Below are positions 538 through 14,603 of a stretch of DNA of 40,298 bases, piece after piece. The position numbers were made by a program, and so were the translations under genes. How positions within the stretch are numbered: the first letter of the stretch is position 1; each line of letters starts with the position of its first letter. The notes beneath the pieces were generated by a model that did not search any database, was not told the origin of the DNA, and saw only the letters and a list, made by a program, of their open reading frames with translations. This stretch comes from an uncultured bacterium (GTDB taxonomy: Bacteria; Bacillota; Clostridia; Lachnospirales; Lachnospiraceae), in the NCBI GenBank assembly GCA_947381965.1, contig CANCXX010000042.1, positions 1 to 40,298 of the forward strand, read 5' to 3'.

Positions 538-3500
538 TTAATTCTTAAAATATTCCTGCATCATTTGTCCCGGTAAACGTGTCTTTATTGCCTGCGCTAA
601 TCCATTCACATCTTGTACATCTGTAAGGTAAATATCACCAATCTGTATTGTAACTGGCTGCTGTACGTTCCTATTATTATTCACAATACTGCTTGCATAA
701 CTGATCTGGTCAGCCTGCTTACTCATTTCCCTATTCTGTTCATAGAGTGAATTAGGTACAAGTTTCTCTAAGTTACTGTCAATACTCTTGAAATAAGCTT
801 CAAATTTCTGTTGTAAATCGTACATTCTGTCACCGGGCTGTAAAGAGCGTAATACAGATCCGTCCGTTCTTATGACAGTTCCATCCGAATACTCTATATT
901 GCCGTTAGCATATGCGATTCCTGTTTTGATGATATTCCCCTTGTCCAGCAGTTCTTTTGTCTGCAGGTGGTTGAAAATTAGATCACCCTTTTCAGTGTTT
1001 ATCCATTCAGGCCCATTGTCGCCAACTGTTTCAAAAGTTCCGTCCTTTGAATGCACCCAAAGTTCCTGTCCAAGTTCACCCACAAGGGATTTCCCTGGAG
1101 CTTTAACCCCCCAGTTGCCTGTGACATTCGCCGTCCCCGACACATGGGCATTTCCTGTATATTTTGCCTTATACTCCGCACTGTCAGGATTTACTGCGCC
1201 TAATGCCGTGCCGGAAGCGTATAACGGGAATTCATCGCTTTCAACATGAATCCTGATTGTGCATTCCACTTCCTGTCCGTCAATAGAGGCTAACCCTTCG
1301 GATATTCCGTCTACATGTCCCCTTGCTTCCCCGATAGTGTCCCTGAAATCACCAAACCTTCCAATAACTCCATCGCCGTCAGGCTCGCCTAATGTTTCCT
1401 GTGTTATCTCTCCCATATCTGTGATGGAAGATATCAGGCTGCTTTCACCTTCACTGCCATTCCCATTTTCATTAGTTCCAGATTCACCAGTACCGATAGC
1501 GGATGACACTTCATCTACTGCCGTCTTCATGGAGCCAAATTCACCGATGACAGTGCCGTCACCTTCAGCACCCGGTTCCCCTATGACCGTATTTGCAGCC
1601 TCACCCATTTCATTAATTGCGTCCGTAATGGAATTTCCGCCTCCTTTGGAGCCTTCATCTGCGCCGGAACTCATGCTGGGGCTGGAGGATGTGGAAGGAT
1701 CGCCTCCTTTTTCAGAACCGGAAGAGCCGCCCCCGGAGATAGCGGATGCGACATCTGTTATTGCTGTCTTCAGATTGTCAAACTGTGATATAATGCCTTC
1801 TTCAAGGGATATTTCATTCAATGCCTGTATAGCGGATGCAATACCTCCCACTGCCCCTTCTTCCGCTCCTTCCATTCCTGCGCCTAATGTTTCAGCCACA
1901 AGGATAAGCTGGTCATATAAAAGATGGAATGCACTGGTCAGGTTATTTATCGGCGTTGTATCCAGCGTGGCCGCTGTATCGTTTATAGAGCCAAGGCTTT
2001 CCTGTATCTCAAGTATCTTCCCTTTCAAAAGTTCGAAATCGGCTATTTCACTGTTTACTGCGCTGCTTACCATATTCTGTTCTGCTTCCACAGCAGAGGT
2101 CTTCTCATTTATGGCTGCAATTATTTCATCAATTTTCTGTCTTAATCCCTCAAATACACTCTGTTCCTCTGAAACAAGGGAGTTTGCTTCGGAAAGTCCT
2201 GCTGTAATATCGGATACATTAGAAGCAGCCTCTCCTGTGCTTACAGCTGTCTCTCCAAGGGAGCTGTTTACACTTCCCACGCTCTGGTTTGACTGGTCAA
2301 GCTTCCCATTCATTTCATCTAATTTTGCATTTGAGTCTGTTAACACTGCAGGGGCCGTGCCCTCATACCCTGATAATTTCTGGAGGTTTGACAACACTTC
2401 CGCATTCCCCTCATTGAGTTTGAATACGACATCCATGTAAGCGTTTTTCAGCTTCTCAAACTCTTCTTCAGAGCCGTTAAGAAGGGCTTCCTCGTCAATG
2501 CCTAACTGCTGTAATTTAGCGGATAATTCAGCCTGTCCAAGGATCTCGGTAAGTTCCTCATATTTAGTTTTGGACTTTTCAAGATTCTCAATCAGCGTTT
2601 CATAATACAGCTCTGTCTGCTCCCTCTGCTTCTGGACGGACTCTATCTGCCTGTCTATGGCTTCTATCTGGGTGTCTATCGCTTTGATCTGACTGTCATA
2701 GAATTCTTTGGTTTTCTCAATCTCTTCATCATAGAATTTATTAATCCTGTCAATCTCTTCATCTAATAAAGTGATCTGTTCACTGATGGCATCCTTCTTA
2801 TCATTGAGAAGGCCTATCTCTTTTTCGATAAGTTTGATCTGCTTTTCTTTATTGGCTATCTCAATTTCGAGTTTTGCATCGTCAACGTTGTCTTTCTGGT
2901 CACGGATGCCTGTTGTGTCCGCAACATAGTGCATCCCTTTTTCTTCGGAATACTGAAGGATAGTTCTCTGGTGCTGTAAACGCTCTAATTCATACATGGC
3001 CTTCTGTAAATCAATCTGCCTCTTGCGCTGTTCATTGGCGTCCTTCATAGCGTCTATTTCGTCTTGGATGCTGTCAATGACCTTTTCCTTATCCTTTATC
3101 TGTTTTTCGATAAGCTTTATCTGTTCTTCAAGCTGTTTCTTCTGCTGCTCAATGACCTCAATTCTCGCATCCCTTTCATCTTCGAGAGCGTCTACTGCGG
3201 CATCGCGGGCCTCTTCCAAAGCTTTCTTCTGTTCTTCCAGAAGGGATTTCTGCTCTTCCAGAGCGTCTATCTGTGCGTCAATGGATTCCAGAGCGGCTTC
3301 TTTCTGGGTTTTGATTACGCTTATCTGATCGTCTATCTTTCCTGTAATGCCTGATATCACGCTGTCAAGATCGCTTAATTCCTCTTTCAGGCCGTCTTTG
3401 TAGGATTTACCAGCATCTTTTCCGGCTTTCTTTGCACTGGATTTTCCCCTGTTGCGCAATTTGACAGTAGGCTCGATTTCCATGTTCTTATTTTCACCGT

Positions 3501-6500
3501 TAGCAAGTACTTCAAGCTGTGCCTTAATCCCATTAACTACCCCAAGTGCAGCTACTCGTGCAGCAACATTGTTATCATATGCCCCGCTTTCAAGCCCGGA
3601 ATATATATTCATAAGGCTAATCAATAATTGGATAGATTTGCTTGTCCTGTCAGTATCACCAGCTAAAGCGATAAGGTTTTCACAGTCAGCGGAAGTGTCA
3701 AGTGTGGCTGCCTGTTCCGCAATTTTAGCGTCATATAATGCAAGTATCATGTTAGAGGTAAGTTCTGAGTATGTTCCCTCTGCAATTAATAGTTCGATTT
3801 CATCATAGGTAGCGTTCCCAAGCTCTAAACTTGACTGTGATAAGACTTCTTTCGCTTCATTTAATGCCTGTGCGTAGGAGATAACTTCTTCATAATTCTC
3901 AACACCCATAGCTTTAAGCTGTGTAGCATAGTATTCTTTATTCTGTTCTGTAAGCTGTGCAAGGAAATCATTGCTGTTTACCCATTCTGTAGCAAGGGCA
4001 TTTGCGGCTTCCTCACATTCTTCATAAGAAGAAGCAGTGCTTCCTAAAACTTCCTGAAACCTGTCCCATGATTCCAGCCCACGAACTTCTACGTCAAACC
4101 CTGTTAATGTGTCAGCTTCTACAAAACCGTTTTCCTGTTTGGTGTTAAGTGCTTCAGCCATGGAAGATATCTGACTGGACATAGATGATAACTGCGTAGA
4201 TTCATCTACCAGCTTATTGATTTTGGACACTGCTTCATCAGCGGAGATATTAAGGTTTTTGAAATAGCCTGTAGAGTCAGCATTATTAAATGCTTCTTTT
4301 GTGAGACGACCTTTCTCTGCAAGTCCTAGGAGAGTATTGCCTAATTCTTTGACTGCATCATTCTCTGAGGTGAAGGAACCTGCCCAGGCTTGGTCGAAGG
4401 ATAAACTCTCTGTTTCAGATCTTTGTCCTAAATATTCTTTTTCAGCTTCCGCTGCATCCCTAGCCCCTTGTGCGATTCTCTGCCAAGCGTCAATTTCTTC
4501 TTGTGTGTTAATGGAATGCTCCTTGAAGAAAGCAGTAGGGTTGTAACCATTAAACTTTTCTTTTGCAAAATTAATTGCATCCTGAGACTGTTTCTCTAAA
4601 TCCTCGGTTAATTCTAATTCAGGTATTAAAGATAAAGTTATTGCGTGCCCTTCCCCAAAATAATCCTGTACCTGTTTGATATAATCAGCTTTTTCCTTTG
4701 GAGTCAGGTCTTGGTTTGTAAATATCTCTGATAATGCTTTAGAGATTTTTTCATTATCTTGTACTTTATTTATTTCATATAGAAATTCATTCTGTAACCA
4801 GCTACTTACTTCATCCCAGTTACTTGCGTCCACGGTTTCTGGTATTAAATCAACCCAGTCACCACTTTGTAACATGCTCTTTATTACATTCTGCATATCG
4901 GAATCCATTTCGTTGAAATTCCATTCTGTAGAAAGCCAAGTGTTGATATAGCTTGCAATACCAGAATTAGCAGAAGCAATATTACCCTTTACAATTTGAG
5001 CAGTATCTTCATACTCAGCACCGAATTCTTGTAGTTTATTCAGTAGCTTGTCAAATTCCTCATTGGACAATTTTGTAAAGTCCCATTCAGCGGAATTAAA
5101 AGAGTTGGCGGCATATTCAGACGCAGTTTGCTTCTCACTATAAAAATCATTTCCATAACGGGAACTCATAATACCAGCTTCTTTAGCTGCTTTGATAAGA
5201 AGATTGTTGTCGCTTTCGCTGGTTAGAGTTAATGTGGAACGCTTTTTTATTTCCTCTGCCCATTTTAAATACTTTTCAACTGCCTTTTCAGCAGAATCTA
5301 GCTCTCTGTCAAACTCTTCATCATCTAGCATAAATCCTGCCCAAATATCAGACATTTTTTTCATGATTTCCTGATTTGCAAGTTTCTGCTGAGCACTGAC
5401 TAAATCATTGATAGAACCAACAATAGTGTTTACATTCCCAGATAATCCAAGTATTGCATTTCCGTTTTCATCGTAATTGACAGTTAATTGCGGGAATAAT
5501 TCAGCTAACTGATTACTTAAATCAAGAAATTCTGCATACTCATCATTGCTTAGAGAACCACGGGACTGATTGACTTTGCCTAAGTTTTCTACTTCCTGTG
5601 CAAGCTGTGCATACCTCTGTTTGATGTTATCTGTAGTCGATGACAATTCATCAAAGTCAGACTTGATCGTTTTTACAGCAGATTTGGATTCTTCCGCAGT
5701 TTCCCTTATTTTCCGTTTCGCTTCTTCTAATGAATCATTGTATTTCTTAATGCCCAAAGCGGTACCAGCTATAGCGGTTACAGCCAATGTTGCCCATCCA
5801 AGAGGGTTGGTGGTTAAAAATGCCCACATGGATGCTGTTGCGGCTTTAATTTGTATCCATAAACCTTTAAATGCTGTTCCTAAACCTAGTGTAGTGCCTG
5901 TTGTTGTGGCTTGGGAAGCAGCGACTGCATTTGTGCTTGCTGCGTTTGCTACATTTGCGGTTGTCTGTGATTTAGTGGCAGAGAGTAAACCCATCTTTTC
6001 AAGCTTGAGTTTGGCTTCTTCCTGCGTTAAATCATGAGTACTAAGTATTTTTATCCGATCAGTTTCCTCTAATTGTTTCTGTGATAATAGCAATTTCAGA
6101 TTCTTTTCAGTTAAAGATTTTGTAGTATTTCCTATTTGTTCTAATACGTCAACCCGTAATGCTTCATCAACTGGTAAACTCTTCACCTGTTGTAAAGCAC
6201 TGCCCAACGTATTAAACTGTTTAACAGTAGAAACTACTGCCGCCCCAATAGAAGCAATACCCTTTCCTATATTTAATGAAAGCACCGCAAGAATACTATG
6301 CTTTAAGAGGTCTGTAGAATTAACTAAATCTAATAATCCACTGCCTATATCAGCAGTATATTTGATCAAATCGCCGCTCATAAATGTGGAGTATGTCTCG
6401 ATCAACTTCTCTTTAAATATAGTAAGGCTTGCTTCGGCTGATTCCATGTACTTGGAATATTCCTGCGCCATGCTGTTAGCCGCATTCATACTGTCATTTT

Positions 6501-8022
6501 TGATCTTCTCTAACTCTTCATAATTTAGGAGCAGTGAAGCACCTGCACTGGCTCTTTGTTTGCCGAACATAACTTCCAGCAAGTCAGCCTGGGAACGGTC
6601 ACTTAATGAATCAAACACTTCACCAATCTCAAAGAGCATCTGATATGTGCTTTTCAGGTTTTCGTCATCTTCAAAGATATTAACCTTATTTCCTGTAAGT
6701 TCATATATCTGCTGCTGGATTTTGGTAATGTCAGCAGAGACACCCTCTGCATCCTCTCCCATCTCTTTTAGGGCATCTACCTGTCCCCTTAAGCGCATGG
6801 AAGCCACCTTTAGCATGTTGGAACCCTCTTCTGGATTCTGGTAGATTTTATTGGTTGCCGTAATCAATGCGATTGTCTCGTTTAAATCATTCCCTGCGAC
6901 TTTTAATGCCGCACTTGCATTTTGCAGTCCATCGGCAATTCCTTCACTGTCTATCGCATATTTGTTCCCAATTGCATTTATTTTATTTCCGACTGCTTCC
7001 ACTCTCTTGACATAATCATCTACGCCAAGATTATCTATCTCTGTAAATGCCTGTGCCGCTGAAATCAAAGTAGAAGTAGCTTTTTCATTAGAAATCTCCG
7101 CTGTCTTTTCAAATATGGAAGTGATTTCTGCCAACTGTTCCGACATATCCAGATTAAATCCAATCTTAGACCATGCTTCCATAGAAGAAATCAGGCTTTC
7201 TGTTGTGACTGCTAAGTTTTGCGCTAACTTATTCCATCTTGTCAGCAGTCCCGAAAACTGGTCACGCCCTGTTATCTGGTCTTGGACTTTATACAGGTTC
7301 GTCATTGCCGTATCCAGCTTCAGGAAAAATGATACCGCCTGTTTTGCCTGTGAAAATATCAAGGAAACTGCACTTGCTGCCGAAAACATATCCTTAAATC
7401 TTACAATAAGATTTTTAAACTTATCACCTAATGATTGTGAAGCTAAATCATTGGCCTTTAATTCGCTTGTAAATGCGGCTATCTGCGCCCTGACATTTGA
7501 TAACTGTTTAGCGTCTGTAATCCCATATGCCGCATCAAGGATGTTATGGTACTTTGAGGAGGCAGAAGCATTTGAGAATAACTTGGAATATCTCTTTGCC
7601 ATATACTCCAAATCCGCAATCGCTTTTTCTTTCTTTGCTTCTACATTAAAATCAATGGATGTCCTGTTTGCTACCCTTTGACCTTTATTCCTTGCCTCTG
7701 TGACTGTCTTCGCAATATCAGAATCTTTTGCACGGACTCCAATCTGAAGATCAGATATGCTGTCCTGTAATGTTTTGATCCTGCCCTGTAATTTTTTCTT
7801 TAAGGCACTGTCTATCTTTAAATCTGCGCCAACCTGTAAATACAGGTCATTCAGTTGTTTTAAATCCTTTTTCAACTGGCGTTGGGATAATGCCATTGAC
7901 AGCTTGGATATCACCTTTATGTACATGGAATTATCCATGCCCTTTAAACCCTCTTTTATCTTCTTTTTTGTTGCCTGTTGATTTAATACCGCTATTATGT
8001 CTAATAGAAATTCTTCTTTCAA
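538..8022 (-). CDS. Phage tail tape measure protein
   Basis: This is a 2494-residue tape-measure protein, the scaffold that sets tail length in long-tailed phages and occupies the tail lumen. The likely start is TTG at 8022, because AAAGGAGG lies 7 bases upstream; the ATG at 8046 precedes that ribosome site. Residues about 220-570 resemble the TP901-type tape-measure core (helical, with a conserved A-S-M-R-L-R-G-Q segment). Hydrophobic stretches near 585-610 and 735-760 are typical of this family. Residues about 1520-1800 form a long charged coiled coil with E/K/Q heptads. A Gly/Ser/Glu-rich linker follows at about 2080-2200, then a compact C-terminus ending in L-P-G-Q-M-M-Q-E-Y-F. No lysozyme or peptidase domain was recognised. 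By the usual rule of about 0.15 nm per residue it would specify a tail near 370 nm if unprocessed. A terminator hairpin lies directly upstream, and the usual tail-chaperone genes are absent. Confidence 0.92.
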   Translation of the reverse strand: MKEEFLLDIIAVLNQQATKKKIKEGLKGMDNSMYIKVISKLSMALSQRQLKKDLKQLNDLYLQVGADLKIDSALKKKLQGRIKTLQDSISDLQIGVRAKDSDIAKTVTEARNKGQRVANRTSIDFNVEAKKEKAIADLEYMAKRYSKLFSNASASSKYHNILDAAYGITDAKQLSNVRAQIAAFTSELKANDLASQSLGDKFKNLIVRFKDMFSAASAVSLIFSQAKQAVSFFLKLDTAMTNLYKVQDQITGRDQFSGLLTRWNKLAQNLAVTTESLISSMEAWSKIGFNLDMSEQLAEITSIFEKTAEISNEKATSTLISAAQAFTEIDNLGVDDYVKRVEAVGNKINAIGNKYAIDSEGIADGLQNASAALKVAGNDLNETIALITATNKIYQNPEEGSNMLKVASMRLRGQVDALKEMGEDAEGVSADITKIQQQIYELTGNKVNIFEDDENLKSTYQMLFEIGEVFDSLSDRSQADLLEVMFGKQRASAGASLLLNYEELEKIKNDSMNAANSMAQEYSKYMESAEASLTIFKEKLIETYSTFMSGDLIKYTADIGSGLLDLVNSTDLLKHSILAVLSLNIGKGIASIGAAVVSTVKQFNTLGSALQQVKSLPVDEALRVDVLEQIGNTTKSLTEKNLKLLLSQKQLEETDRIKILSTHDLTQEEAKLKLEKMGLLSATKSQTTANVANAASTNAVAASQATTTGTTLGLGTAFKGLWIQIKAATASMWAFLTTNPLGWATLAVTAIAGTALGIKKYNDSLEEAKRKIRETAEESKSAVKTIKSDFDELSSTTDNIKQRYAQLAQEVENLGKVNQSRGSLSNDEYAEFLDLSNQLAELFPQLTVNYDENGNAILGLSGNVNTIVGSINDLVSAQQKLANQEIMKKMSDIWAGFMLDDEEFDRELDSAEKAVEKYLKWAEEIKKRSTLTLTSESDNNLLIKAAKEAGIMSSRYGNDFYSEKQTASEYAANSFNSAEWDFTKLSNEEFDKLLNKLQEFGAEYEDTAQIVKGNIASANSGIASYINTWLSTEWNFNEMDSDMQNVIKSMLQSGDWVDLIPETVDASNWDEVSSWLQNEFLYEINKVQDNEKISKALSEIFTNQDLTPKEKADYIKQVQDYFGEGHAITLSLIPELELTEDLEKQSQDAINFAKEKFNGYNPTAFFKEHSINTQEEIDAWQRIAQGARDAAEAEKEYLGQRSETESLSFDQAWAGSFTSENDAVKELGNTLLGLAEKGRLTKEAFNNADSTGYFKNLNISADEAVSKINKLVDESTQLSSMSSQISSMAEALNTKQENGFVEADTLTGFDVEVRGLESWDRFQEVLGSTASSYEECEEAANALATEWVNSNDFLAQLTEQNKEYYATQLKAMGVENYEEVISYAQALNEAKEVLSQSSLELGNATYDEIELLIAEGTYSELTSNMILALYDAKIAEQAATLDTSADCENLIALAGDTDRTSKSIQLLISLMNIYSGLESGAYDNNVAARVAALGVVNGIKAQLEVLANGENKNMEIEPTVKLRNRGKSSAKKAGKDAGKSYKDGLKEELSDLDSVISGITGKIDDQISVIKTQKEAALESIDAQIDALEEQKSLLEEQKKALEEARDAAVDALEDERDARIEVIEQQKKQLEEQIKLIEKQIKDKEKVIDSIQDEIDAMKDANEQRKRQIDLQKAMYELERLQHQRTILQYSEEKGMHYVADTTGIRDQKDNVDDAKLEIEIANKEKQIKLIEKEIGLLNDKKDAISEQITLLDEEIDRINKFYDEEIEKTKEFYDSQIKAIDTQIEAIDRQIESVQKQREQTELYYETLIENLEKSKTKYEELTEILGQAELSAKLQQLGIDEEALLNGSEEEFEKLKNAYMDVVFKLNEGNAEVLSNLQKLSGYEGTAPAVLTDSNAKLDEMNGKLDQSNQSVGSVNSSLGETAVSTGEAASNVSDITAGLSEANSLVSEEQSVFEGLRQKIDEIIAAINEKTSAVEAEQNMVSSAVNSEIADFELLKGKILEIQESLGSINDTAATLDTTPINNLTSAFHLLYDQLILVAETLGAGMEGAEEGAVGGIASAIQALNEISLEEGIISQFDNLKTAITDVASAISGGGSSGSEKGGDPSTSSSPSMSSGADEGSKGGGNSITDAINEMGEAANTVIGEPGAEGDGTVIGEFGSMKTAVDEVSSAIGTGESGTNENGNGSEGESSLISSITDMGEITQETLGEPDGDGVIGRFGDFRDTIGEARGHVDGISEGLASIDGQEVECTIRIHVESDEFPLYASGTALGAVNPDSAEYKAKYTGNAHVSGTANVTGNWGVKAPGKSLVGELGQELWVHSKDGTFETVGDNGPEWINTEKGDLIFNHLQTKELLDKGNIIKTGIAYANGNIEYSDGTVIRTDGSVLRSLQPGDRMYDLQQKFEAYFKSIDSNLEKLVPNSLYEQNREMSKQADQISYASSIVNNNRNVQQPVTIQIGDIYLTDVQDVNGLAQAIKTRLPGQMMQEYFKN

Positions 8023-8044
8023 TCGTTTTCCTCCTTTGACATAC

Positions 8045-8074
8045 AAAAAAGACAGTCCGATATGAACTGCCTTT
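8045..8074 (-). terminator. Terminator after the zinc-ribbon gene
   Basis: On the minus strand a 9-bp stem (8066-8074 with 8048-8056, one G-U pair) is followed by a run of six T. It lies 39 bases after the zinc-ribbon stop and only about 23 bases before the tape-measure TTG start, so the tape-measure ribosome site comes right after the T tract. Confidence 0.75.
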
Positions 8075-8112: not shown

Positions 8113-8685
8113 TTAGAACTTACTGCCGCAAACATCACATTTATATGTTTTTGATACATGACCTGCCGCAAACACGCCGAATGTCAGTGCTGATACTGCT
8201 TTATTGGTCATGCTGATTTTATGTATTCTGGTGGAATGGCATATCGGACATTTGGGAAGATTATCATAATCTTTTTCCCACATATTCAACTCACGCCACC
8301 CATCAGGTCTTTTAGGGATAACTGGATTAGTTACTGCTTTTCCGCATCCTTTACAATGTACTTCTACACCATCTTTTAATTTCACATATTCAGAATTAAT
8401 GACACTAAACTTATTGTATAAAATTGGATTGACTTTTCGACAAGATATACAGTTACAATAAATATCTCTTAAATCTTTATCCTCATACATATCTTCATCA
8501 TCAATAGAATAAAAGTACATATCTGGATGTTCTAAATCTATTTCTTCCTTTTCATCATGGACAGAAGTTTCACTCTCTTCTTCATCATCAAATGAAGCAT
8601 TACAAACAGGACACACTGTAAAATCTTTTGCCTTTTCAAATGGAAAAATCGTTCCACACGATTCACATATGATCTTCTTTGCCAT
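8113..8685 (-). CDS. Multi-zinc-ribbon protein, moron-like
   Basis: This 190-residue protein carries six C-x2-C type knuckles: an N-terminal C-E-S-C / C-P-V-C pair, a central C-I-S-C / C-K-G-C pair and a C-terminal C-P-I-C / C-D-V-C pair. That suggests three zinc ribbons separated by an acidic linker (about residues 35-75). The last ribbon contains a hydrophobic A-L-T-F-G-V-F-A-A-G insert between its two knuckles, a layout seen in many uncharacterised Firmicute zinc-ribbon proteins. The start at 8685 (M-A-K-K-I-I-C) follows AAGGGGAGTTGGTGTT; the upstream ATG at 8706 overlaps the ribosome site. It has its own promoter (8724-8753) and terminator (8045-8074), the organisation of a prophage moron. 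A role in host or phage transcription or in protein interaction is possible but not shown. Confidence 0.75.
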   Translation of the reverse strand: MAKKIICESCGTIFPFEKAKDFTVCPVCNASFDDEEESETSVHDEKEEIDLEHPDMYFYSIDDEDMYEDKDLRDIYCNCISCRKVNPILYNKFSVINSEYVKLKDGVEVHCKGCGKAVTNPVIPKRPDGWRELNMWEKDYDNLPKCPICHSTRIHKISMTNKAVSALTFGVFAAGHVSKTYKCDVCGSKF

Positions 8686-8723
8686 AACACCAACTCCCCT
8701 TCTCATTCTTTATCTTACATACA

Positions 8724-8853: not shown

Positions 8854-9170
8854 CTAAAAACTCCCACTAAGAGGCGTTGAATTTGGAGTGTAATCTCTAT
8901 TGCACACCATTACGCCATTATGCCATATCTGCACATTCGTTTTTGCATGATTATCCGCACCGTGAATATAATATCTTCCTCCTGTGCATTTATTAACACC
9001 TAAAATTCCTTCTTCATATCTGTTATTATAAATTACTTTAATTGCTTTCACTATATCATCAGGACTATTGCTTTCGGGTGTAACACCTAACTCTTTGAGT
9101 TCGTTAAAAATAGCATTACACCCACCCGGAAAAGACTCAGTTATTTTACGATTTGTTCATTAATCGCCAT
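8854..9170 (-). pseudogene. Frameshifted small phage gene
   Basis: An ATG at 9170 opens M-A-I-N-E-Q-I-V-K and then meets TAA. If one A is restored in the A4 run (about 9143-9146), the frame continues I-T-E-S-F-P-G-G-C-N-A-I-F-N-E-L-K-E-L-G-V and runs to the stop at 8854, giving about 105 residues. The 65-codon frame starting at 9051 is only the intact 3' part. This looks like a small phage structural or accessory protein inactivated by a 1-base deletion. A programmed -1 slip on AAA or a sequencing error are alternatives. No known family is recognised. It lies just downstream of two other decayed small genes. Confidence 0.6.
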
Positions 9171-9190
9171 AATCTTACAATTTTCTTTCA

Positions 9191-9337
9191 CTACAAACAA
9201 TAACACCCGGATGGATGTATTGCTTTTAATTGGATTTTTCCATATTCAGTTGTAATTAATTTAATCTTGGTTTTGCAGCTTTGAATTTTTACTGCTTTGA
9301 TTTTTTAGACTTTAATTTGAATTTTATATGTGTTTGA
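9191..9337 (-). pseudogene. Decayed small phage gene fragment
   Basis: A minus-strand frame of 49 codons has one internal TAA at codon 11 and no start codon. The remaining sequence (K-I-K-A-V-K-I-Q-S-C-K-T-K-I-K-L-I, then E-Y-G-K-I-Q-L-K-A-I-H-P-S-G) looks protein-like, and its TAG lies 20 bases before the ATG of the next broken gene, normal phage spacing. The surrounding DNA (9230-9400) is extremely AT-rich. It may be the 3' end of a decayed gene, but chance is not excluded. Confidence 0.35.
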
Positions 9338-9394
9338 TTAGTTAATAGTTACATTTTGATTTTACTTATTATTAGTAATTATCAAGAAAAACAT

Positions 9395-9556
9395 TTAGCT
9401 TAATGAGGGATTCCTCCCACCATCACATTTTTTGTTCTTAAAGGCAGATACGATCTCCCTTGGAATTTTTGTTTGTTCAGCAATATAGTTAATTTTTTAT
9501 TCCCTGCACTTCTCAATCAACTTTTTTCTTACACTCTCCTGCGTCACATTGAACAT
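9395..9556 (-). pseudogene. Small DNA-binding-like gene with internal TAA
   Basis: This 54-codon frame starts at ATG 9556 after AGTAGGTG and begins M-F-N-V-T-Q-E-S-V-R-K-K-L-I-E-K-C-R-E. Codon 20 is TAA (9499-9497), and the same frame then continues K-I-N-Y-I-A-E-Q-T-K-I-P-R-E-I-V-S-A-F-K-N-K-K to a stop at 9395. The I-A-E-Q-T-K-I-P-R-E-I-V-S-A-F-K segment fits a Cro/XRE-type helix-turn-helix, like short regulator-like proteins in clostridial prophages. One substitution turns the stop back into a sense codon, so I call it a recent nonsense pseudogene. Confidence 0.6.
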
Positions 9557-9620
9557 TTTTTCACCTACTTTCTATATTGTTGTGTGTCGTAATAATATGA
9601 TATTAAATAACTTATGCTAA

Positions 9621-9768
9621 CCAGCCGGAAGACAGAGTCTCCTTTAATGGCTGGATGGCCTGTATATGTGGTATATACAGGGCTTGGCACTATTTTTATT
9701 GTGTTTTGTATCCAGAGCATAGAGGTTCTGGACGGATCACTGGCGTGGACTTTTAGGCTCACACCAGT
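9621..9768 (-). ncRNA. Candidate structured RNA with four tandem hairpins
   Basis: Read on the minus strand, four stems follow each other within 148 nt. They are 9 bp (9768-9760 with 9747-9739), 6 bp (9732-9727 with 9716-9711), 9 bp (9681-9673 with 9667-9659, loop of 5) and 6 bp (9654-9649 with 9626-9621) enclosing an inner bulged stem (GGAGAC/GTCTTCC). The first stem contains a G-U pair that would be a C-A mismatch if the plus strand were transcribed, so the minus strand is favoured. None of the hairpins is followed by a T tract. It starts about 150 nt after the sigma-like gene and ends about 65 nt before the broken HTH gene. A TTGACA sits at about 9806-9811 without a good -10. Its family is unknown to me; a transposon or phage attachment structure is an alternative. 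Confidence 0.45.
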
Positions 9769-9915
9769 CATGAAAAAATTTAGAGAATAAATTTGAATGT
9801 TTTATGTCAACTGTATGAGCCGTTTTGTGCCTGATATCCATAAATGTTTTTGAAAATCATATATTGCCTTGTCCCTCTATTTATATGTGATAGATTATAT
9901 AAGAAAGTGCACCTT

Positions 9916-11574
9916 TCAACTGATATTATACATAAAGATTTCATGTTTTTTATTTGATCTGCTAATAACGCGCCTGTCTTTTGGTACACCATAACATACT
10001 TTTTCTTCCAGATCACAGAAATAGAAATTTATGTACCCACAATACACCATTAGTTTTCCTCTGTCTATGCAATTCCGAATTGGCTTTTTTACATTCCTGC
10101 TTGAAAATAATCGGATCTTTAAGTCTCCATCTCTTAATTCAGCCTCCCAGTAACCGCTTTTCCAATCATCAAATCCCTTTAGTTTATATTCCTTTAGTTC
10201 ATTTTCCCTATATTTCTCTTCTTTCTTCTGATAAAAGGATACCATCGTATTTGCTATATTCATTAAAGCTTCTTTTTTATTTTCTAGCAGATCCTCATTT
10301 TCAAGCATCAGGTTTACCATGTCATATTTCTTTTTTCCTTTTTCTAAGGATATAATACCCATGGCCATATCTTCATATTTTTTTATTGCCCTGAAATAAC
10401 TGTTAAAATTATTGTTATCAACACTGTTATTAATAAATTTAATGCTTTTATCATATATTTCATAACTTGCCCTGCTGAATATTTTAACATACGCTTCCTT
10501 ATCCAGCCTATACAAAAACCGTTCCGATTCCTTTTCATAAATCCCTTTGCTTTTTTCTGCCTTATCAATCCTGTTATTTAATGAATAAAACAGATGGTCT
10601 AACATCCGTTGCTCTATAATTTCCATATCCTTTGATATATTCTCCTGCTTAATGTTTATGCCGTGCCTGGATTTAATCATTTCCTGCAAGACTTCCTGTT
10701 TCACCAAACGCATGCCTACCCCTATCTCCATATCACTTACTGTATTTGGAATAAAAGCGCCCTCGCAATTCATCACTGTTTCTATCATTGCCTTAACGTC
10801 ACAGGCATTTATTTTAAAAAGCTTATAAACATCATTGTTTTTTATCCATTCCAAATATTCTTCATATATCATTAGCCGTGACGTAGCGCTTTCCATTTGC
10901 AGATATTTTTTATAAGCATATTCATCAAAAGCAGAAATTTCTATTTCTGCTTCCTCATTATTATAGTCAGCATCAAAAATATCCAGACGGCTGTTTTCCT
11001 CCCTTTTATTTATTTTTCTTGAAGTATAATAGGATATGTTCCTTAACAGGGACGCGCCATCACATATCGGATATCTCTCGTTTTTCTTTCCATCCAGTGT
11101 CAGGCAATTATTTTCATCTGTCTTTGCATTAAAGATCTCGATCACAGTCTCATACATTAATTCATTAAAATCTGAAACATCATATCTGCCCTCATAAAAC
11201 TTTCTATGTCTGCTGCTCTTTTTCTTTTCCCCATTCTCATAGCCCGTACTTTTTGCATCAGAAAGTAAATCTCTTTTTATTGCAAAAAGCAGCTTATTCA
11301 AACATGGAAATTTAAACCTTACCTTTGAATAAGAAGAATTTACCCATTTCTCTTCCTGCCTGTTTTTCTCATTGTCCAAAATTAACTCTGCATCAAGGAT
11401 ATTATCCATATGAGATAGTCTGTGTTCTATAGCCATTTCATCCACTTTGCATACCTGCCTGCCATCCGCTGCCTTAAACAATTCATCCAACGCAATCCTT
11501 TCACCAGATTGGACTCTTATATAAATCCGGTAAAGTTTTTCCACTTCATCATCATTTTTTCTTTTTTTACTCAA
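9916..11574 (-). CDS. Divergent sigma-70-like protein, SOS-controlled
   Basis: This 552-residue protein starts at TTG 11574, 10 bases after GGAGG. Residues 13-35 (Y-R-I-Y-I-R-V-Q-S-G-E-R-I-A-L-D-E-L-F) match the opening helix pattern of sigma-70 family proteins. Residues 135-190 resemble region 2 (D-F-N-E-L-M-Y-E-T-V-I-E-I-F, then L-L-R-N-I-S-Y-Y-T-S-R-K-I-N-K), and residues 295-330 could form a region-4-like helix-turn-helix. The C-terminal 200 residues are charged, helical and then beta-rich, and I do not recognise them. The length is two to three times that of a typical phage or ECF sigma factor. Its promoter carries LexA-type boxes, and the transcript would have a leader of about 400 nt. 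I infer a phage-encoded transcription regulator induced by DNA damage. The sigma assignment is pattern-based; another large helical DNA- or RNA-binding protein is possible. Confidence 0.55.
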   Translation of the reverse strand: MSKKRKNDDEVEKLYRIYIRVQSGERIALDELFKAADGRQVCKVDEMAIEHRLSHMDNILDAELILDNEKNRQEEKWVNSSYSKVRFKFPCLNKLLFAIKRDLLSDAKSTGYENGEKKKSSRHRKFYEGRYDVSDFNELMYETVIEIFNAKTDENNCLTLDGKKNERYPICDGASLLRNISYYTSRKINKREENSRLDIFDADYNNEEAEIEISAFDEYAYKKYLQMESATSRLMIYEEYLEWIKNNDVYKLFKINACDVKAMIETVMNCEGAFIPNTVSDMEIGVGMRLVKQEVLQEMIKSRHGINIKQENISKDMEIIEQRMLDHLFYSLNNRIDKAEKSKGIYEKESERFLYRLDKEAYVKIFSRASYEIYDKSIKFINNSVDNNNFNSYFRAIKKYEDMAMGIISLEKGKKKYDMVNLMLENEDLLENKKEALMNIANTMVSFYQKKEEKYRENELKEYKLKGFDDWKSGYWEAELRDGDLKIRLFSSRNVKKPIRNCIDRGKLMVYCGYINFYFCDLEEKVCYGVPKDRRVISRSNKKHEIFMYNIS

Positions 11575-11981
11575 TAATCTATTACCTCCACAATTGTTTC
11601 ACCACAAATAAAAGCATTGCATCCCTATGCTTCTCCATCTGGAACCATGTTTTTCTCAAAAAAGCCGTCAAAAACTAAACCTTTCAAACAGCTTCAATTT
11701 TGAAGCTGCTAAAAGCTCCTATAGTCCCATATTTTCTTTTTTAAAACAAATTACAATAATTTATTTGCTTACAATACATCCAGTAGTTGCTAATGGATTA
11801 CATGCAGAAACGCTTGAAAAAATTTAGATAATATGCTTAAATGATTTCAGACGCAATTCTGCGTTTCAAATTCTTAACCGTTTCGGTATTGAATTTGTAT
11901 ATGTTTGAGAAGATCTGTCCTAATCAGAGGTGCCCCAACACCGTTTGTATGATTGTGGATAGGTCTTCTTGTGTTCTATTG
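11575..11981 (-). promoter_or_regulatory. Long 5' leader of the sigma-like gene
   Basis: About 400 nt separate the predicted start of transcription from the TTG start. No convincing gene lies in it on either strand. It contains a perfect 8-bp hairpin (11689-11696 with 11701-11708, 4-base loop) and a 5-bp hairpin (11851-11855 with 11860-11864), neither followed at once by a T tract. The length suggests post-transcriptional control or a processed RNA, but no known riboswitch is recognised. Confidence 0.5.
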
Positions 11982-11987
11982 ATAATT

Positions 11988-12038
11988 AGTATATACCAAA
12001 CTTACGTTCCTGTCAAGAGATTGTCGAACTAGCGTTTG
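11988..12038 (-). promoter_or_regulatory. Strong promoter with two LexA-type boxes
   Basis: On the minus strand a consensus TTGACA (12016-12011) is 17 bases from TATACT (11993-11988). Between the two elements lies GAAC-GTAA-GTTT (12009-11998), and just upstream lies a palindromic CGAAC-TAGC-GTTTG (12025-12038, plus-strand reading). Both match the GAAC-N4-GTTY form of Firmicute/clostridial LexA boxes, and their centres are 28 bp apart. Bound LexA would directly block polymerase, so the downstream gene should be off until DNA damage. Confidence 0.75.
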
Positions 12039-12150
12039 TACTTTAAGTTCAATCTTAAATATCAGGAAATTTATGGCACCTGTGGAATAACCAGAAGGTA
12101 ACACCATGAATCTCCTAAACGTTCCCTGTAAATTTCTTCATTAAAAACAA

Positions 12151-12180
12151 TGGGCGAAAGGATATCATCTCTTTCGCCCA
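12151..12180 (-). terminator. Terminator of the membrane chemoreceptor gene
   Basis: TGGGCGAAAG and CTTTCGCCCA form a perfect 10-bp stem with a 10-base loop, about 60 bases after the chemoreceptor stop. On the minus strand TTGTTTTT follows. It separates the host gene from the SOS promoter of the prophage region. Confidence 0.8.
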
Positions 12181-12240
12181 TTTATGTTTAGTTCAATTTC
12201 TATGCACAATATGTCTACCGGTTAGCCAAATACCTGTCTG

Positions 12241-13992
12241 TTAATCTAAGTTAATCGTACCTGAATAGGAATAGGACTGGTCATAGCTGTTTCTTCTTCC
12301 TGTGCTACCTGACGCATATTCTGCGCGTAAAATGAATTTGGCAACAAGTCCTTTTAATACCTCTGCCTGACTTGAAAGTTCCTGACTTGCCGCCGCACTT
12401 TCCTCTGCTGTGGCTGAGTTGGTCTGCACTACACTGGAAATCTGATCTACTCCCATAGTAACCTGTTCAATAGCGCTTGCCTGTTCTCTGGCTGCATCCG
12501 CAATTTTTTCAACTTTATCAGAAGCGCCCCGCACTTCCTCCACTACTTTTATTAATGACTGTGCTGTTGAATCCGCAATCTGCGTTCCCCGTGCCACAGC
12601 GTTAATTGAATTTTCAATCAGCTCTGCAGTATTTTGGGATGCCTCCGAACTTTTGCTTGCAAGGTTTCTTACTTCGTCAGCTACTACGGCAAAGCCCTTT
12701 CCTGCAGCTCCGGCACGTGATGCCTCCACAGACGCATTAAGAGCCAGTATATTTGTCTGAAAGGCAATATCTTCAATCGTCTTAATAATTTTTCCAATCT
12801 GATTGGAAGTCCGGGTTATTTCCTCCATAGCGGCCATCATGTCTCTCATCTGGTTATTACATGCTTCCATTTCATTGCCGGCCGTACTTGACTGCTTCTT
12901 TGCCTCTGCAGCATTTTCCGCTGTTTCTTTTACCTGTTTGGATATTCCTGTTATGGTGGCTGCAAGTTCCTCAACAGCAGCTGCCTGCTGCGTTGCCCCC
13001 TGTGAAAGAGCCTGAGCGCCATTTGAAACCTGACTGGACCCTGCTGCCACCTGGTCAGCACTTTGGTTAATCTGTCCCAAAGTGGAGCTTAAACCACGGT
13101 TAAGTTTTCTTATGGATAAAAGCAGACTTTGGAAACTTCCCACATATCTCTCTTCCGCCCTTGTGCGCACATCAAAATTTCCATCAGCCATTTCTCCAAG
13201 GAGCATGGAAGCATCAGAAATAACTGCTTCCAAAATAACCGTCATATTTCTAAAGGCTTCTGCAAGGCTGCCCATTTCATCCTTTGACTTATATGTCACA
13301 GAAATATCAAAATCACCTTTTACAATCTTTCCGGCCGATATTTCCAGTTCACGTAGAGGACGTGTAATTGCTCTTGTCAAATAGAGGGAAAGGAGCAATG
13401 TAATAACAAGCGCCCCTCCTGCCAGTCCAACCTGAGCGGCAACCAGCAAATCCTGCAGCTTAACTGTTTCAAGGTAGTCTGTCTGCGCCCCCTCTTCAAC
13501 CATATTACTGATTTGTATCAATGTATTTACAGCCTCTTCTACCAAAGGCTGGTATTCATTAAGGAGCATTTTCTGCGCTTTTAGCATGTCCGTATCGGCC
13601 ATACTTATAACCGTCTCCTGCATCTCTACCGCTTCGGTGATACTGGCCGCAAATGAATCCAGCAGCGTCTGGTCCCCTGTATAATTCTGGAAAAGCCAGG
13701 TGGCGTTTTCCTCCAGCAGTTTCAGTTCCTTCTGCATGTCACTTAGGTAAACTGCACTCTTCTCATCATCATCCTCCATTGTAATAAATCCAAGATCTTT
13801 TACAATAATCTGAAGACCGCGGCGCATATTCATAACTTTATTGGTAATTTGATATCCAACATTATAAAATTCTGAATATTTCGCTGCGTTTTCCTTCAAT
13901 CCATAGATTGCAGATGCTACCGTTCCGCAAAACAGGATGATAATAATCATAAATGTTGCCAATAACTTCGTTCTGATTCTTAAATTTTTCAT
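12241..13992 (-). CDS. Methyl-accepting chemotaxis protein, membrane-bound
   Basis: This is a 583-residue transmembrane chemoreceptor that senses a ligand outside the cell and controls CheA. Membrane helix 1 spans about residues 9-30, a four-helix-bundle-like extracellular sensor about 31-180, membrane helix 2 about 183-205 and a HAMP domain about 206-260. The signalling hairpin follows, with the conserved tip [21 protein letters not shown] choose ATG 13992 (M-K-N-L-R-I-R) because AGGGG is 6 bases upstream; the ATG at 13998 abuts that ribosome site. The C-terminal tail lacks a clear CheR-binding pentapeptide. It is a single-gene unit with its own promoter and terminator. The ligand cannot be told from the sequence. 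Confidence 0.93.
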
Positions 13993-14111
13993 CTTCATCC
14001 CCTATTCTACATCTTAAACAGCCCTCCGCCTCCCCACAGGATATGTAAAAACTCATTTTCCCTGACGTTATACTGGCCATTTATGGTCTGATGGTTTATT
14101 ATTTATAAATT

Positions 14112-14140
14112 ATTATAATAGATTATTATCAGTCTGTCTA
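14112..14140 (-). promoter_or_regulatory. Promoter of the membrane chemoreceptor gene
   Basis: On the minus strand TAGACA (14140-14135) and TATAAT (14117-14112) are 17 bases apart, giving a leader of about 110 nt. An overlapping CTGATAAT weakly resembles a motility sigma -10, but the matching -35 spacing is not convincing. Confidence 0.55.
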
Positions 14141-14289
14141 CTTAATTTAAATTTCTATAAATTTCCTTTTCAGAAGCATATCATCTATCTGTCCTCCCAG
14201 GGTGTAACGGCAAGAAAAATTTATATTTTTCTTAATATTTTCTTTCTTTTTAGGAAACACTTTATACACAATTTTATCATATACTATAA

Positions 14290-14405
14290 CTACAAAAAGA
14301 AGTCGCCGACGCTTGTTTCTGGTGCTGACCGGCTTCGACAAGAAACTGCAGGTTTTCCTGTTTACATATAAACCGGTTCTGTATGATACCGGTTTATTTT
14401 TATGC
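14290..14405 (+). ncRNA. Candidate small RNA or leader with terminator
   Basis: This interval between the two chemoreceptor genes folds on the plus strand. A GTCG-CCG / CGG-C-TT-CGAC stem encloses the start, CAGG-TTTT-CCTG forms a small hairpin, and a perfect 10-bp stem (14368-14377 with 14388-14397) followed by TTTT forms a terminator. A TATACT at 14280-14285 could be a -10, but no good -35 is present. It could be a small RNA or an attenuated leader of the plus-strand chemoreceptor, which starts 200 nt later. I could not match it to a known riboswitch. Confidence 0.3.
14368..14401 (+). terminator. Terminator upstream of the soluble chemoreceptor
   Basis: ATAAACCGGT and ACCGGTTTAT make a perfect 10-bp stem with a 10-base loop, followed on the plus strand by TTTT. 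No coding gene lies upstream on this strand, so it must end a non-coding transcript or act as an attenuator. Confidence 0.65.
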
Positions 14406-14603
14406 GCAGAGGCACGTAGGGAAATTTCCGTGTATTTCTTCCAAAATTATATTGCAAAAAAAAGCAAAATTCCTTATCATAGAAATATAATGCGTAAATG
14501 AAGAAAACGCTTATGTGTCGACATTTAATATTATATGGCAAATACTTTGCATAAAATGTCTGCCTGGCTAACTTTCATTATTACAGAAAAACGAGGTACA
14601 AAT

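Follow-up and report, generated by a model that had tools for sequence, protein, structure and literature searches.

A promoter with LexA-type boxes that seems to border a phage-derived element, and the conserved leader RNA that it probably transcribes

What does a promoter that carries two LexA-type boxes control, when it lies between a host gene and phage-like genes? The question is raised by a 40,298-nucleotide stretch of Lachnospiraceae DNA, which was analysed as a whole and is called the window below. The initial annotation had described a TTGACA-17-TATACT promoter with a GAAC-N4-GTTT box in its spacer and a second box 28 bp upstream, all of which the sequence confirms, and had predicted tight LexA repression of a 552-residue gene. 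The features of the window that bear on this are as follows.

12149 to 12182, no strand assigned: terminator hairpin at the end of a host chemoreceptor gene, separating that gene from the promoter
12025 to 12038, plus reading: LexA-type box 2, CGAACTAGCGTTTG, upstream of the promoter
11988 to 12016, minus strand: sigma-A type promoter TTGACA-17-TATACT, 11 of 12 consensus matches
11997 to 12010 (minus reading 12010-11997): LexA-type box 1, GAACGTAAGTTT within GGAACGTAAGTTTG, inside the promoter spacer
11903 to 11975, minus strand: conserved RNA hairpin P1 with a UACAAAC-GGUG...CACC internal loop, supported by covariation and scoring 79.9 bits with model R1 (the window is among the ten sequences behind R1)
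11867 to 11897, minus strand: optional hairpin P2, CAAAUUC...GAAUUUG, from folding, and by eye in about 12 of 21 loci
11804 to 11862, minus strand: pairing P3, GCAGA...UCUGC, from folding, with a similar pairing in many, not all, loci
11663 to 11693, minus strand: predicted terminator-like hairpin with a T-rich tail, between the RNA and the gene
9916 to 11574, minus strand: gene for a 552-residue protein without known domain, TTG start after GGAGG
8113 to 8706, minus strand: 197-residue zinc-ribbon-like protein, named from its cysteine pairs
538 to 8046, minus strand: 2502-residue tape-measure-like protein (PF10145, E 5e-13; phrog_4211, E 3e-44)

On the minus strand, TTGACA occupies 12016-12011 and TATACT 11993-11988, separated by a 17-nt spacer, and this promoter is one of the two best among 25 promoter-like sites in the region 9000-14600. 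The two boxes lie 28 bp apart from start to start, box 2 being the upstream one, and the operator overlaps or adjoins the core promoter as in the LexA/SOS regulon of Firmicutes. Both are exact GAAC-N4-GTTY sites, the operator motif taken from the accessible text of PMC4234289, and both match the motifs (GAACnnnnGTTT) that, according to that text, were searched for as Clostridioides difficile LexA sites. Box 2, which had been called palindromic, is present as described but is only quasi-palindromic (CGAAC/GTTTG, not CGAAC/GTTCG). The window is slightly atypical in the position of its spacer box, which is offset by 4 bp, whereas in most of the RNA loci described below it abuts the -10 element. 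To the right of the promoter lie the terminator hairpin, whose T-rich tail (read by eye) is on the minus strand, and then the chemoreceptor gene. To the left, the leader takes up about 400 nt and is followed by the 552-residue gene, small ORFs, and the zinc-ribbon-like and tape-measure-like genes, and the contig ends shortly after. The promoter seems to face a phage-derived element and to stand at its edge.

A single box means little, since such boxes are as common as chance predicts both in the window and in the genome. With up to two mismatches, CGAAC-N4-GTTTG occurs 26 times in the window (one of them exact) against 25.6 expected from shuffles, and GAACN4GTTY, with 83 + 93 matches genome-wide, is not above its reversed-pattern control (112 + 99). 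The longer CGAACN4GTTYG has two matches in the 4.3-Mb genome (control pattern, five): one is box 2, and the other precedes a host radical-SAM-like gene, with a second box 55 bp from it. A lexA gene, which the initial annotation had proposed to look for, is encoded in the genome (PF01726, E 2e-24). The lexA/yneA-like intergenic region holds one exact site, GAACAAAAGTTC, and four sites with one mismatch; GAATACATGTTC lies inside the spacer of a TTGACT-17-TACAAT promoter, like box 1 in the window. A host LexA and similar operators at the host's own SOS-type genes, the lexA/yneA-like region and the radical-SAM-like gene, are thus both present, as in the Firmicutes SOS regulon; "yneA-like" and "radical-SAM-like" are labels from sequence and position, not from a database match. 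In the host, at L002 1447-1526, two exact and one near LexA-type box stand before a 443-residue radical-SAM-like gene.

As for what follows the promoter, a search of 60 genomes with the promoter-leader DNA returned the window and one genome of the same genus (G001), 80% identical over 86 nt, where a promoter and boxes of this kind also stand upstream. A pattern drawn from these two sequences led to six viral contigs, and a shorter pattern added two of 397 sampled genomes of the family; pattern matches without the flanking motif (L046-L049 and L051) were removed as chance matches before all counts. We built a covariance model of the first hairpin P1 (R1, 71 positions) from ten sequences, the window among them. 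R1 matches seven of 37 genomes of the genus (8 places) and nine of the ten genomes or records behind known loci (11 places). Under strict filters, which make these counts lower bounds, it matches at least seven of the 397 sampled family genomes, adding three new loci, and, among 391 sampled genomes of the class, the window's own genome only. The RNA loci now total 24 (21, and three more found by the RNA alone) and span the window, other genomes of the genus and family, and the six viral contigs; three of the RNA-bearing genomes also encode relatives of the 552-residue protein. These loci are related rather than phylogenetically independent, G028, G029a and G029b being nearly identical, so that counts over them are not independent either, and the divergence among them speaks against all being recent copies of one sequence.

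The RNA has no match in Rfam when the window is searched. With lax settings, the window leader gave three matches far below the gathering score, and the leader of a second locus, L041, gave none at E up to 1. A distant blastn search for the RNA in phage and plasmid records returned short chance-like matches only, a second RNA pattern had no viral hits, and the RNA is undescribed in the titles and abstract openings that a search of open-access literature brought up, though so limited a search cannot show that it has never been published. A 26-bp match of window positions 12127-12152 on another contig (C5) was rejected as unrelated sequence with coding ORFs.

The leader of the window folds 4.1 standard deviations below shuffled sequences (z -4.1). 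Its constant part is P1, a stem with an asymmetric internal loop, whose loop and apical stem are the most conserved parts; P1 is one invariant hairpin, whereas P2 and P3 vary among loci. P1 matches are 59-75 nt long. Across 21 loci (20 distinct), 93.8% of cells hold standard pairs, compared with 30-46% when slid, and two-sided changes occur in seven of 17 pairs against a shuffle mean of 2.6, with none of 500 shuffles as high; the number of further pair types did not exceed what shuffling gives (481 of 500 shuffles reached it). Two forms of the hairpin occur: a long one, AUCAUACAAACGGUG...CACCUCUGAU, and a short one, in which CCUCAAAC stands before the apical stem. At one short-form locus GCUG/CAGC replaces GGUG/CACC, a compensatory change that recurs in L098.

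The boxes and the RNA occur together. In 20 of 21 RNA loci the promoter is of the TTGACA type, with 9-12 of 12 consensus matches and a spacer of 17 nt that carries a box with at most one mismatch. An exact RAACN4GTTY, a consensus fixed after the first members were seen, is present no more than 75 bp upstream at 19 of the 21 loci, and ten of the 21 have two such boxes. Shuffled sequences had at least one exact box in a mean of 0.21 of 21 loci (maximum 2) and never two, while five control windows had exact boxes in 0, 0, 1, 0 and 0 of 21 loci. The three loci found later by the RNA alone all show the same promoter layout and all have exact boxes, and overall 22 of 24 RNA loci have an exact LexA-type box upstream; the exceptions are G477, with no box, and G478, with one box carrying a mismatch. 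Because they are conserved upstream of the RNA across loci, the boxes stand far above chance. The initial annotation had named lack of conservation in related elements as grounds for giving up the LexA reading; with relatives defined by the RNA, the boxes are conserved, and together with the lexA gene and the similar boxes at the host lexA/yneA-like region this supports its proposal of LexA control and a link to DNA damage. The sequence thus makes a good case for this control, and from it we infer LexA binding and induction. Directly upstream of the promoter, toxin-antitoxin-like genes (by reading) or AbiH were seen in L073, L080, L045, L082, L040, L041 and L078, a Phd/YefM antitoxin being confirmed in L082 and an AbiH gene in L078.

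The genes after the RNA differ from locus to locus. A sigma-70-like factor is among the first of them in eight of 24 loci, and all six sigma-like ORFs tested show similarity to TIGR02937 (E 3e-8 to 1e-11; one above the curated cut-off). TubR/TubZ-like pairs follow in five loci (by reading), the tubulin domain being confirmed in two, GmrSD/ParB-like genes follow in G478, and other or cut-off genes stand at further loci. The N-terminal part of a 695-residue protein encoded at L090 400-2487 reads as sigma-like and seems to be joined to a longer C-terminal part.

Four relatives of the 552-residue protein are known to us from genome contigs (L033-L036, 58-63% identity). A search of 98 genomes, the window's own included, found only its own copy, and none turned up in viral contigs or in phage or plasmid records. 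Within 800-1000 bp upstream of the four relatives there is no exact GAACN4GTTY, and an unfiltered search for P1 directly before them gave nothing convincing (best 8.6, 9.0 and 9.3 bits; at L033, a 19.1-bit hairpin without the conserved loop). Boxed promoter and RNA do lie upstream of the relative on the same strand, at 10.9 kb in G471 (L034) and at 14.0 kb in G470 (L033), and most listed ORFs in between share that direction. The carrier with the 10.9-kb distance is a cultured one, Eubacterium sp. 14-2. In the genome of L035 the RNA is on another contig than the relative, and in that of L036 it was not found. An ORF similar to the zinc-ribbon-like one also separates the relative from the giant gene in L035, and a shorter version does so in L034. 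The 552-residue gene is indeed the first large ORF downstream of the promoter, as the initial annotation had it, but the conserved leader in between had been missed and the gene is not a constant partner. A promoter dedicated to it does not agree with the four relatives, which have no exact box nearby, or with the RNA, which instead accompanies the promoter ahead of differing genes. Judged from these loci, the constant partner of the promoter is the RNA, with the 552-residue gene as one possible cargo; the short distance from RNA to gene in the window may be ancestral or may result from loss of early genes.

Several further observations concern this gene. At L034 9468-9509, two one-mismatch sites, GAACGTATATTC and GAACGCACATTC, are spaced by 30 bp and precede the gene by 497 and 467 bp. 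They come just after a terminator-like hairpin, and the first of them is in a weak TTGAAA-17-TATAAA layout. The pair could be a decayed (second) LexA promoter; three one-mismatch sites in 800 bp are within chance (50 of 200 shuffles have as many). Upstream of the gene, in the window (11575-11650) and in L033-L036, there is a conserved stretch like ATGGAGAAGTAATAAG ... TTGTGGAGG ... TTATTGAG, which resembles the leaders of other element genes (G001, G028, G470, G471) and could be a second promoter or a translational signal. The idea, formed by eye, that the protein is a sigma factor was dropped, with no sigma match in NCBIfam, PDB sequences or Pfam and none to the sigma factors of the elements in profile-profile comparison (hhalign). 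Its AlphaFold model (pLDDT 49) was too poor, and Foldseek was uninformative.

Sense terminator-like hairpins occur after P1 in 15 of 18 loci, against six of 18 on the antisense strand and a shuffle mean of 5.5 (maximum 9). The count covered 550 nt per locus, beginning 130 nt past base one of the P1 model; this stretch includes the 3' part of the RNA and, in some loci, coding sequence. It used 18 of the first 21 loci, leaving out G477 as well as G034 and G329, whose contigs end after the RNA. In G470b the match falls within a predicted ORF, and in G020 and G478 it comes after the predicted start of one, which may have been placed too early. In G472, G474, G475a and G478, the Shine-Dalgarno-like sequence of the next gene comes within about 25-40 nt of the hairpin. 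This arrangement suits a leader that needs read-through, hence antitermination or attenuation. Five operon interiors hold 14 sense and 25 antisense terminator-like hairpins and so lack sense enrichment; a long-range role like that of put or conAn, compared below, is therefore not indicated. Transfer RNA genes were seen right after the RNA, before the terminator-like hairpin, in four of nine scanned loci (L040, Met; L042, Gln and Thr; L044, Lys; L053, Arg).

Taken together, the boxes, the promoter, the conserved RNA, their linkage and the varying downstream genes make it probable that this promoter, bordering a phage-derived element, is repressed by LexA and transcribes a conserved structured leader RNA. 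As long as DNA is undamaged, host LexA bound to the spacer box would block RNA polymerase, and LexA would also sit on the upstream box. Upon DNA damage, RecA would trigger self-cleavage of LexA and the promoter would fire; that RecA-stimulated cleavage frees LexA is established for LexA, and would hold for this promoter too. The transcript would start with P1, usually followed by more stems and a terminator-like hairpin, and then run into early genes. Elsewhere these would be a sigma-70-like factor, TubR/TubZ-like partition genes or a gene run of 10-14 kb; in the window, the 552-residue gene would come directly, followed by the zinc-ribbon-like and tape-measure-like genes. The structured leader probably acts in cis, and it may, as a tentative proposal that we put somewhat below an even chance, let polymerase read through the leader terminator by antitermination or attenuation.

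Two other readings keep the LexA control and change the task of the RNA. It might be a trans-acting, SOS-induced small RNA that ends at the leader hairpin, often together with a tRNA, and binds host or phage targets, the downstream genes having promoters of their own. Terminator-like hairpins after P1 in 15 of 18 loci fit such an RNA, as do the tRNA genes right after it in four of nine scanned loci and its persistence where few element genes seem left (G029a, G035, G472); P1, however, is a stem with an asymmetric internal loop in which no free invariant seed is apparent, and in the four loci with a Shine-Dalgarno-like sequence 25-40 nt past the hairpin there is little room for another promoter, and we consider this reading rather unlikely. 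We give a similarly modest chance to a leader that controls translation or binds a protein without antitermination, be it as the site of an element-encoded regulator or as an element of RNA stability or processing. In favour of this, the internal loop and apical stem are the most conserved parts of P1, and L098 has little besides P1 between promoter and sigma gene; yet no partner protein common to all loci was seen, and the downstream genes differ.

The remaining two readings concern the promoter itself. That it is dedicated to tight LexA control of the 552-residue gene, with the leader as a long untranslated region, agrees with this gene being the first large ORF in the window, with a good Shine-Dalgarno sequence, and with the degenerate one-mismatch box pair 30 bp apart about 0.5 kb before the gene in L034. 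The relatives weigh against it: none of the four has an exact upstream box or a copy of P1, the one-mismatch count is within chance, and it is the leader, not the gene, that travels with the promoter. We regard such a dedicated promoter as improbable. That the boxes are chance occurrences in an ordinary promoter would accord with single boxes being no commoner than chance in window or genome, but with exact boxes at the same promoter in 22 of 24 RNA loci it is hardly credible.

As for the elements that carry the RNA, in G029 (from L078 5649 to L089 10142) the RNA and a tyrosine integrase mark opposite ends of a stretch of about 23-24 kb, which has genes for TubZ, helicase-like, ParB-like, zinc-ribbon-like and 2369-residue tape-measure proteins in between. 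The 22 ORFs listed for it have at least 70 aa in L078 and at least 110 in L089. A PHROGs scan of 16 of them gave no match to capsid, portal or terminase families, and several matched PHROGs families of unknown function. The gene order of G471 (L082, L034, L086) is similar, with a confirmed integrase and a partial PHROGs scan, and a search for direct-repeat att sites in G029b and G471 gave nothing convincing. The RNA is also present on a 162-kb viral contig (L092), together with a tape-measure relative 38% identical over about 395 residues. The integrative elements of roughly 25 kb in G029 and G471 are possibly satellites, or decayed or conserved reduced prophages. In a bolder picture, which we think distinctly unlikely, the P1 RNA would be a new RNA-only antiterminator that puts whole phage early programmes under LexA in this family and is shared by large temperate phages and by these roughly 25-kb elements with tape-measure protein and integrase and without recognisable capsid genes, which would be a new kind of satellite answering the same alarm as its presumed helper.

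LexA-controlled phage promoters are already known. A conserved structured RNA joined to a LexA-type promoter and reused before different gene sets suggests that regulation in this Clostridia-type family has one more step on the way from DNA damage to prophage induction. The 71-position covariance model provides a searchable marker for SOS-responsive mobile elements, and the question of whether the leader RNA gates read-through becomes directly testable.

Among known structured RNAs, GOLLD and ROOL are associated with phages and tRNAs, and are much larger than the window-type RNA. They resemble it in being structured noncoding RNAs of bacteria and phages that lie near tRNA genes; the leaders of the window and of L041, in contrast, match no Rfam family. 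According to the accessible text of PMC8955417, conAn of pLS20-type plasmids similarly has an RNA that comes first in a long operon of a mobile element, also in Gram-positive bacteria. As described there, however, it acts as an RNA together with a protein, ConAn1, in operons with many terminators, whereas the interiors of window-type operons show no excess of sense over antisense terminator-like hairpins. The promoter itself can be compared with P1 of phage GIL01, an early promoter with dinBox1 and dinBox1b that is repressed directly by host LexA (accessible text of PMC4551915). Both systems have two LexA sites of unequal quality at an early phage promoter, but those of GIL01 are downstream of the transcription start, whereas in the window one lies in the -35/-10 spacer and one upstream; the same text does not mention a structured leader RNA for GIL01, while the window promoter has a conserved one. 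For the RNA, a likeness by description is to put of phage HK022, which in the accessible text of PMC9378689 is a structured RNA of about 70 nt with two stem-loops, downstream of an early phage promoter and before early genes and terminators, that acts on E. coli polymerase. In the window, too, an early phage transcript, with its start predicted from the promoter, opens with a structured RNA, but here the RNA consists of one invariant hairpin with optional stems, in different hosts and under what appears to be LexA-type control.
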